Shown one piece after another: positions 8,456 through 28,239 of a DNA stretch of 64,000 nt. The notes under the pieces are model-generated. The model was not told where the DNA came from. It did no database searches and saw nothing but the letters and a program-made list of their open reading frames with translations. Position numbers and translations under genes: made by a program. The stretch is from Nitrosarchaeum sp. GTDB taxonomy: Archaea; Thermoproteota; Nitrososphaeria; Nitrososphaerales; Nitrosopumilaceae. Numbering within the stretch: the first letter of the stretch is position 1; each line of letters starts with the position of its first letter. The stretch spans positions 186,001 through 250,000 of the forward strand of contig NZ_JAILWF010000002.1 of the NCBI RefSeq assembly GCF_025699065.1, in the 5' to 3' direction.

Positions 8456-9613
8456 ATGTGGTCTGAAAAATATAGACCTCAGAATATTTCTGATATGATT
8501 GGTAATGAAGAATCAAGATCTTCTATAATTGAGTGGTTCACTAAATGGAAAAAAGGCACAAAACCCCTTTTGCTAGTTGGTCCTCCCGGAATTGGCAAGA
8601 CAACTATTGCATATCTTACAGCAAAACAATTTCAATATGATATGGTTGGATTGAATGCAAGTGATGTAAGAAGTAAATCTAGGATTAACGAAATACTTTC
8701 ACCTATACTTGGCAATGTCAGCATATTGGGCTTACCTATGATCTTCATTGATGAAGTTGATGGTATTCATGGACGAGGTGATTATGGTGGAGCAGAAGCA
8801 TTAATTGATATTTTAAAGGAACCCACTGTACCTATAGTATTAGCTGCAAATTCTGATACCTCTGATAAAATGAAAAGTATCAAAAAAGTTGTTAAGACTA
8901 TATCTTTCAAACCCATTCCTCCACGTCTTTTGAAAATTTACCTTGAAAATATTTTAAAAAAAGAAAATGTAACTCTTAGTCCTGGTTCTATAATAAAAGT
9001 AATTGATAGATCCAGAGGTGATGTTCGTTCTATGATTAATTTAACACAGTCTCTAGTAACTGGGTTTAATCCTCAAACTGAAAAATCATTTGAAAGTATT
9101 AATGTCGAAGATGGAATTAATGCGTTTTTTAAAGCAAATTCATTTGATGAAGCTAGAGGCGTTTTGTATTCTATGCAAATTGATCCGAGATTAAAAATAG
9201 ATGCATTTTACTCAAGTATTGTTACAAGTAATTTAGATAATCAAACACTTGCAAAACTATTAGAAATTATTTCTGAAGCTGATATGCTTTATGGAAAAAT
9301 TATGAAAACTCAAAATTGGAGATTATTACGTTATTTAAATGAAATTTTGATTCGATTATATCTAAATGATGAACGAATTAGATATTCGCAATACAATCTT
9401 TCATGGCCCCTTCTAAATCGGATTAGATGGGATGGAAAAAAAATTAAGTCTTTATCTTCTGTCATGGCAAAAACATTACATCTTTCTTCTAGTGCTTTTG
9501 TTACAATGTGTTTACCATACGTATTATTTTGTATAAAAAATAAAAAACTAAGTTTAGACTTAGAAGAAACTTTTGGTGATGTAATAGAAAAGGAGATTGA
9601 ATTAATCAAATGA
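8456..9613 (+). CDS. rfcL: Replication factor C large subunit
   Basis: This AAA+ subunit of the clamp loader opens and loads PCNA. From ATG 8456 the protein has 385 residues, starting MWSEKYRPQ, the usual RfcL N-terminus. Walker A is VGPPGIGKTT (about 41-50), Walker B is FIDEVDG (about 100), and sensor 1 is AANSD. SRGDVRSMIN matches sensor 2. It is short at the C-terminus: many archaeal RfcL proteins extend further to a PIP box. A GTG four codons upstream overlaps the previous stop, but GTGAT at 8444-8448 can act as ribosome-binding site for ATG 8456. The stop overlaps the next ATG. Confidence 0.92.
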   Translation: MWSEKYRPQNISDMIGNEESRSSIIEWFTKWKKGTKPLLLVGPPGIGKTTIAYLTAKQFQYDMVGLNASDVRSKSRINEILSPILGNVSILGLPMIFIDEVDGIHGRGDYGGAEALIDILKEPTVPIVLAANSDTSDKMKSIKKVVKTISFKPIPPRLLKIYLENILKKENVTLSPGSIIKVIDRSRGDVRSMINLTQSLVTGFNPQTEKSFESINVEDGINAFFKANSFDEARGVLYSMQIDPRLKIDAFYSSIVTSNLDNQTLAKLLEIISEADMLYGKIMKTQNWRLLRYLNEILIRLYLNDERIRYSQYNLSWPLLNRIRWDGKKIKSLSSVMAKTLHLSSSAFVTMCLPYVLFCIKNKKLSLDLEETFGDVIEKEIELIK

Positions 9614-9927
9614 GTTGGAGAAAAATACCTATGAAATTTCCTGGTACATGTGTTGTCTGTAACGAAAAAATTGAAGTAAATGAAATTGGATTATGGGCAA
9701 AAGGACTAGGTGTAAAACATGAAAAGTGTGCTCAAATTAATGAACTAAAATGTATTGTTTGTAACGGTTCTGCTGGTTGTGCACAATGTGAATTCCAAGA
9801 TATTTGTGATATTCAAAAGGTATCACAGCTATGTATTTGCAAAAAATGTAGTGAAGAGAAAAATTCTTTCGATTCTTATCAAAAATCTGTAAAAAAGAAT
9901 TTTTTACTCTTAAATCTGAATTTATAA
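9610..9927 (+). CDS. Small cysteine-rich zinc-binding protein
   Basis: This 105-residue protein has a dense set of metal ligands: CVVC (14-17), His37, Cys40, CIVC (48-51), Cys57, Cys60, Cys66 and CICKKC (75-80). It should hold two or three zinc ions as ribbons. The N-terminal segment KFPGTCVVCNEKIEVNEIGLWAKGLGVKHEKC looks like a treble-clef domain of the kind found in nucleic-acid-binding proteins. The ATG overlaps the rfcL stop by four bases (ATGA), so translation is coupled. It may accompany the clamp loader; no function is known to me. Confidence 0.8.
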   Translation: MSWRKIPMKFPGTCVVCNEKIEVNEIGLWAKGLGVKHEKCAQINELKCIVCNGSAGCAQCEFQDICDIQKVSQLCICKKCSEEKNSFDSYQKSVKKNFLLLNLNL

Positions 9928-10045
9928 ATTGAATTTAGTTTAAAATCCACCGATCTGATATTCTCTTACAAATACTAGATGTCAGATATAAAACCAAAAA
10001 ATAAAACTAAATTAATATAGTAAGATTTCTTTTCATCTATATTAG

Positions 10046-11593
10046 ATGCACTTTGAAAAAATCGATGAATATTCTAAGATAAATAAAATATCGTTACAAG
10101 GTGGAGGACAGGATAAAATCAAAGATCAACATGATAAGGGAAAATTAACCGCCAGAGATAGAATTGATCTCTTATTAGACGTAGGTACTTTTACTGAGAT
10201 TGATCCTCTCGTAACTCATCATTATTATGAATATGACATGCAAAACAAAAAATTCTTCACCGATGGGGTTGTTGGCGGTTATGGAACAGTAAACGGTAGA
10301 CAGATCTTTGTCTTTGCTTATGATTTCACTGTACTTGGTGGCACATTAAGTCAAATGGGAGCTAAAAAAATTACCAAATTAATGGATCATGCAACCACCA
10401 CTGGTTGTCCAATAATTGGCATAATGGATTCAGGAGGAGCAAGAATTCAAGAAGGTATTATGAGTCTTGATGGATTTGCTGATATTTTTTATCATAATCA
10501 ATTAGCTTCTGGAGTTATTCCACAAATTACTGCAAGTATTGGTCCCTCTGCAGGTGGTTCTGTTTATTCTCCAGCAATGACTGATTTTGTTATTATGGTT
10601 GACAAAGTAGGAACAATGTTTGTTACTGGACCTGATGTGGTAAAGACTGTCCTTGGTGAAGAAATCTCATTTGATGATTTAGGTGGTGCAATGACACATG
10701 GAGTAAAAAGTGGGGTAGCTCATTTTGTTGCAAAGAATGAATATGAATGCATGGATTATATAAAAAAATTAATCTCATATCTGCCCCAAAATAATACTGA
10801 AGAACCACCAAAAATAAAAACTGATGATGATCCAAATAGACTTGATCATAATTTAATCAATATCATTCCTGATAATCCCTTACAACCCTACGATATGAAA
10901 GAAATCATTAACTCTGTTGTTGACAATCACGAATTTTTTGAAATTCATGAATTATTTGCACCAAATGTTGTTGTTGGTTATGGTAGACTAAACGGTAAAG
11001 TTGTTGGTATTGTTGCTAATCAACCAATGCATCTTGCAGGAGCACTTGATATTGATTCATCAAACAAAGCAGCTAGATTCATTCGATTTTGTGATGCGTT
11101 CAATATTCCAATAATCACATTTGTTGATACCCCCGGTTATATGCCAGGTTCTAATCAAGAGCATAATGGTATCATTAGACATGGTAGTAAACTTCTTTAT
11201 GCTTATTGTGAGGCCACAGTTCCGAGAATCACTCTTGTAATTGGAAAAGCATATGGCGGTGCCTACATAGCTATGGGAAGTAAAAATCTAAGAACTGATG
11301 TGAATTATGCATGGCCAACTGCACGATGCGCAGTCTTGGGAGGTGAAGCAGCTGTTAAAATTATGTATAGAAAAGAACTATCGAGTGCTAAAGATCCTGA
11401 ATCACTTAAAAAACAACTAATCAGCGAATTCTCAGAAAAATTTGAAAATCCATATGTTGCTGCATCACATGGTACAATTGATAATGTAATTGATCCAGCT
11501 GAAACTCGTCCAATGTTGATCAAAGCATTAGAAATGCTTGCAAATAAAAGAGCAAAACATCTTCCAAGAAAACATGGAAATATCAATTTGTGA
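10046..11593 (+). CDS. pccB: Acetyl/propionyl-CoA carboxylase, carboxyltransferase subunit
   Basis: This 515-residue subunit moves CO2 from carboxybiotin to acetyl-CoA or propionyl-CoA. It has both crotonase-fold halves in one chain: GGARIQEG and IGPSAGGSVYSPAMTDF in the N half, and DTPGYMPGSNQEHNGIIRHGSKLLYAY with GKAYGGAYIAMGSK in the C half. The length is normal for PccB. In ammonia-oxidising archaea this bifunctional carboxylase drives the 3-hydroxypropionate/4-hydroxybutyrate cycle. It is followed without a gap by the biotin carboxylase and the biotin carrier, forming a complete enzyme operon. A TTAATATA element lies about 28 bp upstream. Confidence 0.93.
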   Translation: MHFEKIDEYSKINKISLQGGGQDKIKDQHDKGKLTARDRIDLLLDVGTFTEIDPLVTHHYYEYDMQNKKFFTDGVVGGYGTVNGRQIFVFAYDFTVLGGTLSQMGAKKITKLMDHATTTGCPIIGIMDSGGARIQEGIMSLDGFADIFYHNQLASGVIPQITASIGPSAGGSVYSPAMTDFVIMVDKVGTMFVTGPDVVKTVLGEEISFDDLGGAMTHGVKSGVAHFVAKNEYECMDYIKKLISYLPQNNTEEPPKIKTDDDPNRLDHNLINIIPDNPLQPYDMKEIINSVVDNHEFFEIHELFAPNVVVGYGRLNGKVVGIVANQPMHLAGALDIDSSNKAARFIRFCDAFNIPIITFVDTPGYMPGSNQEHNGIIRHGSKLLYAYCEATVPRITLVIGKAYGGAYIAMGSKNLRTDVNYAWPTARCAVLGGEAAVKIMYRKELSSAKDPESLKKQLISEFSEKFENPYVAASHGTIDNVIDPAETRPMLIKALEMLANKRAKHLPRKHGNINL

Positions 11594-25468: not shown

Positions 25469-25559
25469 TGCTCCAGCCGGGATTTTCATCGTTAGATTTT
25501 GAACCCGGGATCACTGCCTTGAAAGGGCAGTATGCTTGACCGGTCTACACCACTGGAAC
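25469..25559 (-). tRNA. tRNA-Glu (UUC) with a short intron in the T-loop
   Basis: On the reverse strand GTTCCAG pairs with CTGGAGC, and the anticodon arm CTGCC-CTTTCAA-GGCAG gives UUC. The T stem CCGGG/CCCGG is intact, but the loop has 22 bases instead of 7. Removing AATCTAACGATGAAA (25484-25498) restores the standard loop TTCAAAT. TTC/GAA and ATC/GAT pairs with three-base bulges on opposite strands can form a relaxed bulge-helix-bulge for the splicing endonuclease; a symmetric cut would give 16 bases, so the exact borders are open. CCA is encoded (25466-25468). A TTTTATGG promoter element lies about 27 bp upstream. Confidence 0.85.
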
Positions 25560-25639
25560 CCACAAAAATTGGGTAATTTGTCCATAAAATCTTTTGTAAA
25601 CCACAAAGATTTTTTTATTGGCACAATACGAGATGTGAT

Positions 25640-26281
25640 ATGAATCTAATAAAACGAATTGATGAAATGATTGAAGAAAGAAGTTTGTTAAAACACCCAT
25701 TCTATCAAATGTGGTCTGATGGAAAATTATCTCTAGACTCTTTAGCTGGATACTCTAAGGAATATTTTCAACTTGTAAAGGCAGTTCCATCATTTATGAC
25801 TCCAATAATAGAAAAAGCTCCAAATTATGTAATCAAGGAACTAGTTGAAAATCAATTTGAAGAGTCTTCACATATTAAATCATGGATTAAGTTTGCAGGT
25901 GAATTGGGAATTTCTGAATCTGAGTTAACTCATTACAATGGATTAGAAAAGACCAGAAAAGCTGTTTCAGAATTATCTGAATTAATGACTACTTTTGATG
26001 GCGGTGCATGTGCAATGTATGCTTTTGAAAAAGAAATTCCAAAAATAAGCCAAACAAAACTTGATGGTTTGATAGAATTTTATGGAATATCAAACGATGA
26101 GGCTACCGAATACTTTAAACTTCACACCGAAGCTGATATTCGTCATACTGCTTCTTGGAGAAATATTCTTGAAAAAACATCAGCTGATTCAGACAACTTG
26201 ATCCAAATTGCAGATAAATCTATTTCTGCACAAAATTTGATGCTTGATAGTTGTTATGAATCTTATTGTTTAAGCTCATAA
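25640..26281 (+). CDS. CADD-like heme-oxygenase-fold diiron protein (candidate p-aminobenzoate synthase)
   Basis: This 213-residue all-helical protein belongs to the TenA/PqqC/CADD fold. It lacks the thiaminase cysteine pattern but has the metal set of the diiron group: Glu74 and His78 (QFEESSH), Glu130 (YAFEKEIP), His162, Asp166 and His169 (LHTEADIRH). The spacing E130-H162-D166-H169 (32, 4, 3) is the same as I recall for Chlamydia CADD (E142, H174, D178, H181). Tyr22, Tyr158 and Lys140 fall near the residues proposed there for self-sacrificing p-aminobenzoate synthesis. A T-rich TATA element about 26 bp upstream supports the ATG. The function is inferred from these residues, not shown. Confidence 0.75.
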   Translation: MNLIKRIDEMIEERSLLKHPFYQMWSDGKLSLDSLAGYSKEYFQLVKAVPSFMTPIIEKAPNYVIKELVENQFEESSHIKSWIKFAGELGISESELTHYNGLEKTRKAVSELSELMTTFDGGACAMYAFEKEIPKISQTKLDGLIEFYGISNDEATEYFKLHTEADIRHTASWRNILEKTSADSDNLIQIADKSISAQNLMLDSCYESYCLSS

Positions 26282-27156: not shown

Positions 27157-28239
27157 ATGCCTGAAATTTGGTTAAATTATGGTATTACTGATGTTGTTCT
27201 TGATATTAGGGCAGAGAATTTAGAGCAAAAAATTGACTCTGATGGTAAAGTCTTAGATGATGCAGCGATCAATGAAAAGCTCACCACAATTGATTTAACA
27301 AAACCTATGGAACTTGTGATATTACATAATTCTAAATCCATTCAAAAAATTATTTCATCATTATTTACAATCTGTGAACAAAAATCATTACCTTTTCCTA
27401 AAATTTTAGCTGAGAAAAAAATAATGAATCTAGTAAAATCTGGCTTACCTGAAGGAAGTTCAATTAATGAATTTGATAACACAAACCTTTCTAATTCTAA
27501 TCTTGTTTTCATTGGTGAAGTAGAGTTTGATGGATTATTTGGATATGAAACAATCTGTTCCCGATTAATCAAAAAATTTGGTCAAGAATCAATGCTTTCT
27601 GCATATGCAAAAAGAAAAAATAATGTTCCATCTCCTGGGCAAATAACCGAAAGTTTTGATGAAGCAAAAAAATTTGCCGATAATTTTGAAATCAAAGCAA
27701 TTGAAATTGTAGCAAATTCTCAAGGTATTGTTGATTTTTCAATAGGACATCCCTCTGAAACTGTTTCATCTACAAAAATCCTTGAATCATTTGCAATCAA
27801 AGATGTCGGTCATCACAAATCAATGATAATTAGCACTGGTAAAGATTCTAGTAATGACAATCTTGGAAAATCTCTTTCATCTCTTTGGAATTGTGCTAGT
27901 GCTATACAAAATGGAGGTTTGGCAATCTTAGTGGCAGAATGTAAATCTGGTTTAGGCTCTGATGCGCTACAACAATACATTGAGGGAAGATTAACTATTG
28001 ACCAACTTAGAAATCCAACCAAGTATATTTCTGGAATGGAAGATTTATTGTTTTTATCTGAAATTCAAAAAAACTTTCAGATTGGTTTGGTTTCAATTCT
28101 TCCTGATTATTACGTTAAAAAATTAAATATGATTTCATTATCTGGAATTAAACCTTCATTAGATTATATTCTAAAAACACAAGGTAATAGACAAAAAATT
28201 GCAGTTGTAATAGATGGAGCTAGAGTTTTACTAAGATAA
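27157..28239 (+). CDS. LarA-like (DUF2088/nickel racemase fold) protein with a degenerate active site
   Basis: The 360-residue protein starts MPEIWLNYGITDVVLDIRAENLEQ, like the N-terminus of lactate racemase LarA. The C-terminal part NGGLAILVAECKSGLGSDALQQYIEG...FQIGLVSILPDYYVKKLNM matches the LarA C-terminal domain. The middle region is short, and the PH-x-FAGYSGG motif whose histidines and lysine hold the pincer nickel cofactor is not visible; the corresponding stretch reads GEVEFDGLFGYET. It is therefore unlikely to be a normal racemase. The start is ATG 27157, 26 bp after the TATA box, although an in-frame TTG lies 18 bp upstream. Confidence 0.65.
   Translation: MPEIWLNYGITDVVLDIRAENLEQKIDSDGKVLDDAAINEKLTTIDLTKPMELVILHNSKSIQKIISSLFTICEQKSLPFPKILAEKKIMNLVKSGLPEGSSINEFDNTNLSNSNLVFIGEVEFDGLFGYETICSRLIKKFGQESMLSAYAKRKNNVPSPGQITESFDEAKKFADNFEIKAIEIVANSQGIVDFSIGHPSETVSSTKILESFAIKDVGHHKSMIISTGKDSSNDNLGKSLSSLWNCASAIQNGGLAILVAECKSGLGSDALQQYIEGRLTIDQLRNPTKYISGMEDLLFLSEIQKNFQIGLVSILPDYYVKKLNMISLSGIKPSLDYILKTQGNRQKIAVVIDGARVLLR

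Follow-up and report, generated by a model that had tools for sequence, protein, structure and literature searches.

Two bacterial enzymes are known to make p-aminobenzoate (pABA) at the expense of their own side chains, CADD of Chlamydia trachomatis and NePabS of Nitrosomonas europaea. CADD Tyr27 and NePabS Tyr25 are cut off the enzymes' own backbones, while CADD Lys152 and NePabS Lys159 are the amine donors (PMC11965152). In NePabS, Tyr41 is essential, loss of Tyr45 or Trp99 lowers the activity and the exchange F177Y shifts the preference from Fe/Fe to Mn/Fe (PMC11965152). Both enzymes were described in bacteria only, and a literature search, with subscription papers mostly outside its reach, yielded no archaeal enzyme of the CADD/NePabS type.

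Ammonia-oxidising archaea rank among the most numerous cells of sea and soil. Their source of pABA constitutes a gap, because no second chorismate-binding enzyme, and hence no PabB candidate, was found in 200 genomes of the class: none is present in the 187 genomes listed, and the remaining 13 have no such enzyme at all. Here, we describe a gene of a Nitrosarchaeum strain, located within an analysed stretch of 64,000 nucleotides (the window), as a candidate to fill this gap.

Gene and family placement

The gene is located at positions 25640..26281 on the forward strand of the window, starts with ATG and codes for a protein of 213 aa. Based on sequence and structural model, the protein is a candidate self-sacrificing pABA synthase, a relative of CADD and NePabS with the fold of the heme-oxygenase-like dimetal oxidases (HDOs). 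It matches the Pfam families Haem_oxygenas_2 and TENA_THI-4 and scores 165.9 bits (E 9e-49) against TIGR04305, the CADD family of NCBIfam. This value falls short of the curated cut-off of 200 bits, which is reached in 0 of the 200 genomes of the class. The top sequence matches among solved structures are 9pj4 (4-aminobenzoate synthase), 1rcw (CT610/CADD) and 8va9 (CADD), with E-values of 1e-30 to 2e-32, followed by BesC with 4e-5. A profile built from 13 relatives yielded 3e-76 for 9pj4, 2e-63 for CADD and 1e-15 for BesC. Judged from these sequence scores, the kinship with CADD and NePabS is far beyond chance. Since the protein falls below the cut-off and lacks the E-x6-H spacing described below, it is not placed in TIGR04305. 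The archaeal proteins instead very probably represent a sister clade to CADD/NePabS that works in the same way.

The gene is surrounded by genes for a prenyl synthase, tRNAs and pyrE. In nine loci that were read, no folate gene adjoins the CADD-like gene, and the only neighbours kept in some of them are the prenyl synthase and complex I. Gene neighbourhood was thus dropped as functional evidence. Two other features of the window were recorded. A tRNA-Glu(UUC)-like gene at 25474-25563 on the reverse strand is missed by ARAGORN due to an insert of ~15 bases in the T-loop. More than 15 relatives share the insert and one locus (L150) lacks it precisely, the pattern that a non-canonical tRNA intron would produce. 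The protein encoded at 27160-28239 on the forward strand shows a partial match to nickel-pincer LarA-type racemases, far below their cut-offs.

Fold and predicted active site

The AlphaFold2 model of the protein has a pLDDT of 95.7 and a pTM of 0.91. A Foldseek search placed four CADD chains on top (TM 0.92, 30% identity), followed by UndA, PqqC and TenA. Alignment of the model with CADD by VIA-align 2 gave a Z-score of 29.5 and an rmsd of 1.4 Å over 206 residues. The runner-up was PqqC (Z 25.6, 2.0 Å), and PqqC, UndA, BesC and TenA all obtained 25.6 or less.

In the alignment, Tyr22 (codon 25703..25705; this and all following codons on the forward strand) corresponds to the sacrificed CADD Tyr27/NePabS Tyr25 and is the predicted source of the aromatic ring. 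Lys140 (26057..26059) corresponds to the sacrificed CADD Lys152/NePabS Lys159 and is the predicted source of the amino group. The initial annotation had placed a tyrosine and a lysine at the self-sacrificed positions, which this alignment bears out. Tyr38 (25751..25753) is the counterpart of NePabS Tyr41, which is essential there, while Tyr42 (25763..25765) and Trp82 (25883..25885) match Tyr45 and Trp99, both possible members of a radical relay in NePabS (PMC11965152).

Six residues are predicted to bind the metals. Glu130 (26027..26029) is equivalent to CADD Glu142, and the second ligand set H162-x3-D166-x2-H169 (26123..26146) to CADD H174, D178 and H181. The intervals of 32 (E130-H162), 4 (H162-D166) and 3 (D166-H169) residues are exactly those of CADD, as the initial annotation had stated. 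It did not contain the first ligand pair, E75-x2-H78 (25862..25873), which departs from the spacing of CADD (E81-x6-H88). The longer E-x6-H is present in CADD and in 13 of 13 bacterial rows, whereas every archaeal row has E-x2-H, with four residues missing. In the model, residues 62-88 form one unbroken helix that bears both E75 and H78, so that this pair, unlike that of CADD, falls within a single helical turn. The predicted ligands thus comprise the HDO-type set of three histidines and three carboxylates on a seven-helix fold. According to a survey of HDOs, the distance between ligands one and two varies across the superfamily (PMC11363339), so that the short E-x2-H is still compatible with a dimetal site. 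An ungapped MAFFT placement would make E70 the first ligand. This alternative was rejected, as E70 is variable and E75 is invariant in the archaea. It is also disfavoured by modelling: placing the gap behind the glutamate yields the better model (pLDDT of the block 95 vs 71-74), and the model from the mis-gapped alignment loses confidence right at the first ligand pair.

Tyr22, Lys140, Tyr38, Tyr42, Trp82 and the six predicted ligands show no variation among the 71 archaeal and 13 bacterial sequences, and Lys140 is the sole invariant lysine among the 17 of the protein. The 71 distinct archaeal homologues share 31 invariant columns, which include 11 of the 11 mapped site residues (Y22, Y38, Y42, E75, H78, W82, E130, K140, H162, D166 and H169; hypergeometric p 1e-10). 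With the 13 bacterial rows added, 21 invariant columns are left and still include all 11 (p 4e-13); the 71 + 13 sequences share descent, and both p-values are to be taken as a guide only.

Residue 158, missed by the initial annotation, separates the two groups. It is Tyr in 71 of 71 archaeal and Phe in 13 of 13 bacterial rows. Tyr158 (26111..26113) occupies the position of CADD Tyr170 and NePabS Phe177, which sets Mn/Fe versus Fe/Fe in NePabS. With this tyrosine fixed, and given the effect of F177Y in NePabS, the archaeal protein is predicted to prefer Mn/Fe.

The fold is common to many enzymes that act on external substrates. The protein could thus be an HDO that oxidises an external small molecule, in the manner of UndA, BesC and the N-oxygenases, with Tyr22 and Lys140 kept for substrate binding or structure. 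The variable E-H spacing among HDOs in general (PMC11363339) and the lack of folate neighbours would fit such an enzyme. We regard it as unlikely, since the two pABA synthases are by far the closest relatives in both sequence and fold, the only invariant lysine is the one at the position of the sacrificed residue, and the pABA gap of the genome would stay unfilled.

Folate genes of the host genome

The host genome (1.6 Mb, 99.7% complete) contains an archaeal amoA, which identifies the host as an ammonia-oxidising archaeon. The initial annotation had named pabA, pabB and pabC as genes to look for; judged by profile scores, neither pabB nor pabC was found in this genome, which favours its proposal. 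The only chorismate-binding enzyme (PF00425) is TrpE, encoded in the gene order trpE-trpG-trpD. It scores 489.8 bits with the model TrpE-arch, somewhat below that model's own cut-off and 170 bits above the best PabB model. The two class-IV aminotransferases (PF01063) are both IlvE, with scores that exceed the IlvE cut-offs and stay far below those of PabC.

TrpG-type subunits can be common to the tryptophan and pABA pathways. A chorismate route might operate after all if TrpE/TrpG formed aminodeoxychorismate and an IlvE-type aminotransferase acted as the lyase, in which case the CADD-like protein would do something else. TrpE does score on PabB models (318 bits with PabB-clade2) and the IlvE proteins do so on PabC models, in all cases below the cut-off. 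The lead of TrpE-arch over the best PabB model, the location of the gene within the trp operon and the scores of both aminotransferases far above the IlvE cut-offs speak against this route, which would also leave the invariant Tyr and Lys unexplained. We consider it very improbable.

A user of pABA is present. The dihydropteroate synthase (DHPS) scores 203 bits, above its cut-off of 163, and its gene adjoins one for an MptE-like pterin kinase; FolD and SHMT are also encoded. The genome lacks beta-RFAP synthase, an enzyme of the methanopterin route; the search gave 23 bits to a GHMP kinase. A methanopterin-type cofactor was therefore rejected as the use of pABA, so that of the folate or pterin cofactors suggested by the initial annotation only folate is retained. 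Trimethoprim inhibited Nitrososphaera viennensis, another ammonia-oxidising archaeon, when the medium contained no vitamins, whereas vitamins including folic acid and 4-aminobenzoate abolished the effect (PMC11897584), which indicates that such archaea make their own folate and hence need pABA.

Distribution and phylogeny

TIGR04305 matches were obtained in 146 of the 200 genomes of the class, 139 of them strong. All 139 genomes with a strong match also have a PF00809 match (138 strong), compared to 37 of the 61 others (Fisher p 9e-15, with genomes treated as independent of descent). When 300 genomes of the phylum were searched, no strong match was obtained outside this order. The relatives from other Thermoproteota are weak, with at most 73 bits, and those that were read lack the Tyr/Lys pair; a wider archaeal distribution was rejected on these grounds.

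In 28 chosen genomes, the amoA-bearing families f1, f2, f3 and f5 carry the CADD-like gene save for G118, G123 and G146, which had been picked for lacking it. No strong match was obtained in the amoA-less families f4, f6, f7, f9, f10 and f13. The archaeal clade is thus found almost only in ammonia oxidisers. G188 (family f8) is an exception: it has no amoA and matches Pterin_bind only weakly, but possesses a CADD-like gene (L046) with the archaeal E-x2-H. A tree of 94 proteins unites the archaeal rows with a support of 98/100, apart from the bacterial rows of Nitrosomonadaceae, Cyanobacteria, Ignavibacteria, Marinimicrobia and Chloroflexi.

Two loci of family f7, L039 (~9659-10267) and L040 (~9103-9711), code for heme-oxygenase-fold proteins that keep most of the ligands. 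They lack the Tyr/Lys pair, their genomes have no DHPS, and they probably serve another HDO function.

Genomes of family f4 (e.g. G145, G162 and G168) possess DHPS and have no CADD-like gene, PabB or amoA. The reduced genomes G123 and G146 (g15, about 0.8 Mb) contain amoA and DHPS and no CADD-like gene; these ammonia oxidisers possibly depend on outside pABA. DHPS without a CADD-like gene or pabB in both groups implies another pABA source in the class.

A chorismate-independent route to pABA has been proposed in methanogens. That the host itself relies on uptake or on an unknown route of that kind is hardly plausible, even though class members without the CADD-like gene still have DHPS, since a related ammonia-oxidising archaeon grows without vitamins and relies on its own folate synthesis (PMC11897584).

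Proposed function

Taken together, the 213-aa protein probably represents an archaeal version of the self-sacrificing pABA synthases. We assign a probability of about 0.83 to the prediction that it serves this ammonia-oxidising archaeon as pABA synthase and works like CADD and NePabS. The TIGR04305 score below the cut-off, the different spacing of the first ligand pair, the lack of folate neighbours and the DHPS-bearing relatives with neither the gene nor pabB count against this assignment. In its favour, the distant f7 proteins, which come from sister lineages without DHPS, are also without the Tyr and Lys.

In the proposed mechanism, E75, H78, E130, H162, D166 and H169 would hold a pair of metal ions, either Fe/Mn or Fe/Fe, and O2 would oxidise this dimetal site. 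A radical might then be relayed via Y158, W82, Y42 and Y38 to Tyr22. The side chain of Tyr22 would be cut off, turning the residue from Tyr into Gly, and oxidised to the carboxylate, while Lys140 would supply the amine. With Tyr and Lys consumed, each protein would presumably be limited to a single turnover. The released pABA would pass to dihydropteroate synthase and on to folate.

It also seems likely that this is the first archaeal self-sacrificing pABA synthase, from a clade that feeds folate synthesis in most ammonia-oxidising archaea. With E-x2-H on a continuous helix and a fixed Tyr158, its remodelled dimetal site would entail its own metal choice or radical path, probably with Mn/Fe. 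If this is true, a major group of archaea obtains its folate through a chemistry known from two bacteria, and the trick is common to ammonia-oxidising bacteria and archaea. Each pABA would cost one protein molecule, and the organisms concerned live on very little. The natural change in ligand spacing, combined with the fixed Tyr158, provides a direct handle on the choice between Mn/Fe and Fe/Fe.

Comparison with described systems

UndA, BesC and other HDOs resemble the archaeal protein in the fold and the E-H-E-H-D-H type of ligand set. They differ in acting on external substrates, and UndA and BesC reach Z-scores of 22.5 and 21.3, compared to 29.5 for CADD.

CADD (CT610; 1rcw and 8va9) shares 31% identity over 206 residues at 1.4 Å, the Tyr27/Lys152 pair, the 32/4/3 spacing and a Tyr at the position of CADD Tyr170. 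The archaeal protein is distinguishable from it by E75-x2-H78 in place of E81-x6-H88, by Phe129 in place of Tyr141 and by the lack of folate gene neighbours.

NePabS (NE1434; PMC11965152), with the solved relative 9pj4, shows about 34% identity and also originates from an ammonia oxidiser. Its residues Tyr25, Tyr41, Tyr45, Trp99 and Lys159 are matched by Y22, Y38, Y42, W82 and K140, and the HDO ligand residues are the same. In contrast to NePabS, the archaeal protein is devoid of the bacterial loop that would follow residue 61, has E-x2-H instead of E-x6-H and carries Tyr158 where NePabS has Phe177.
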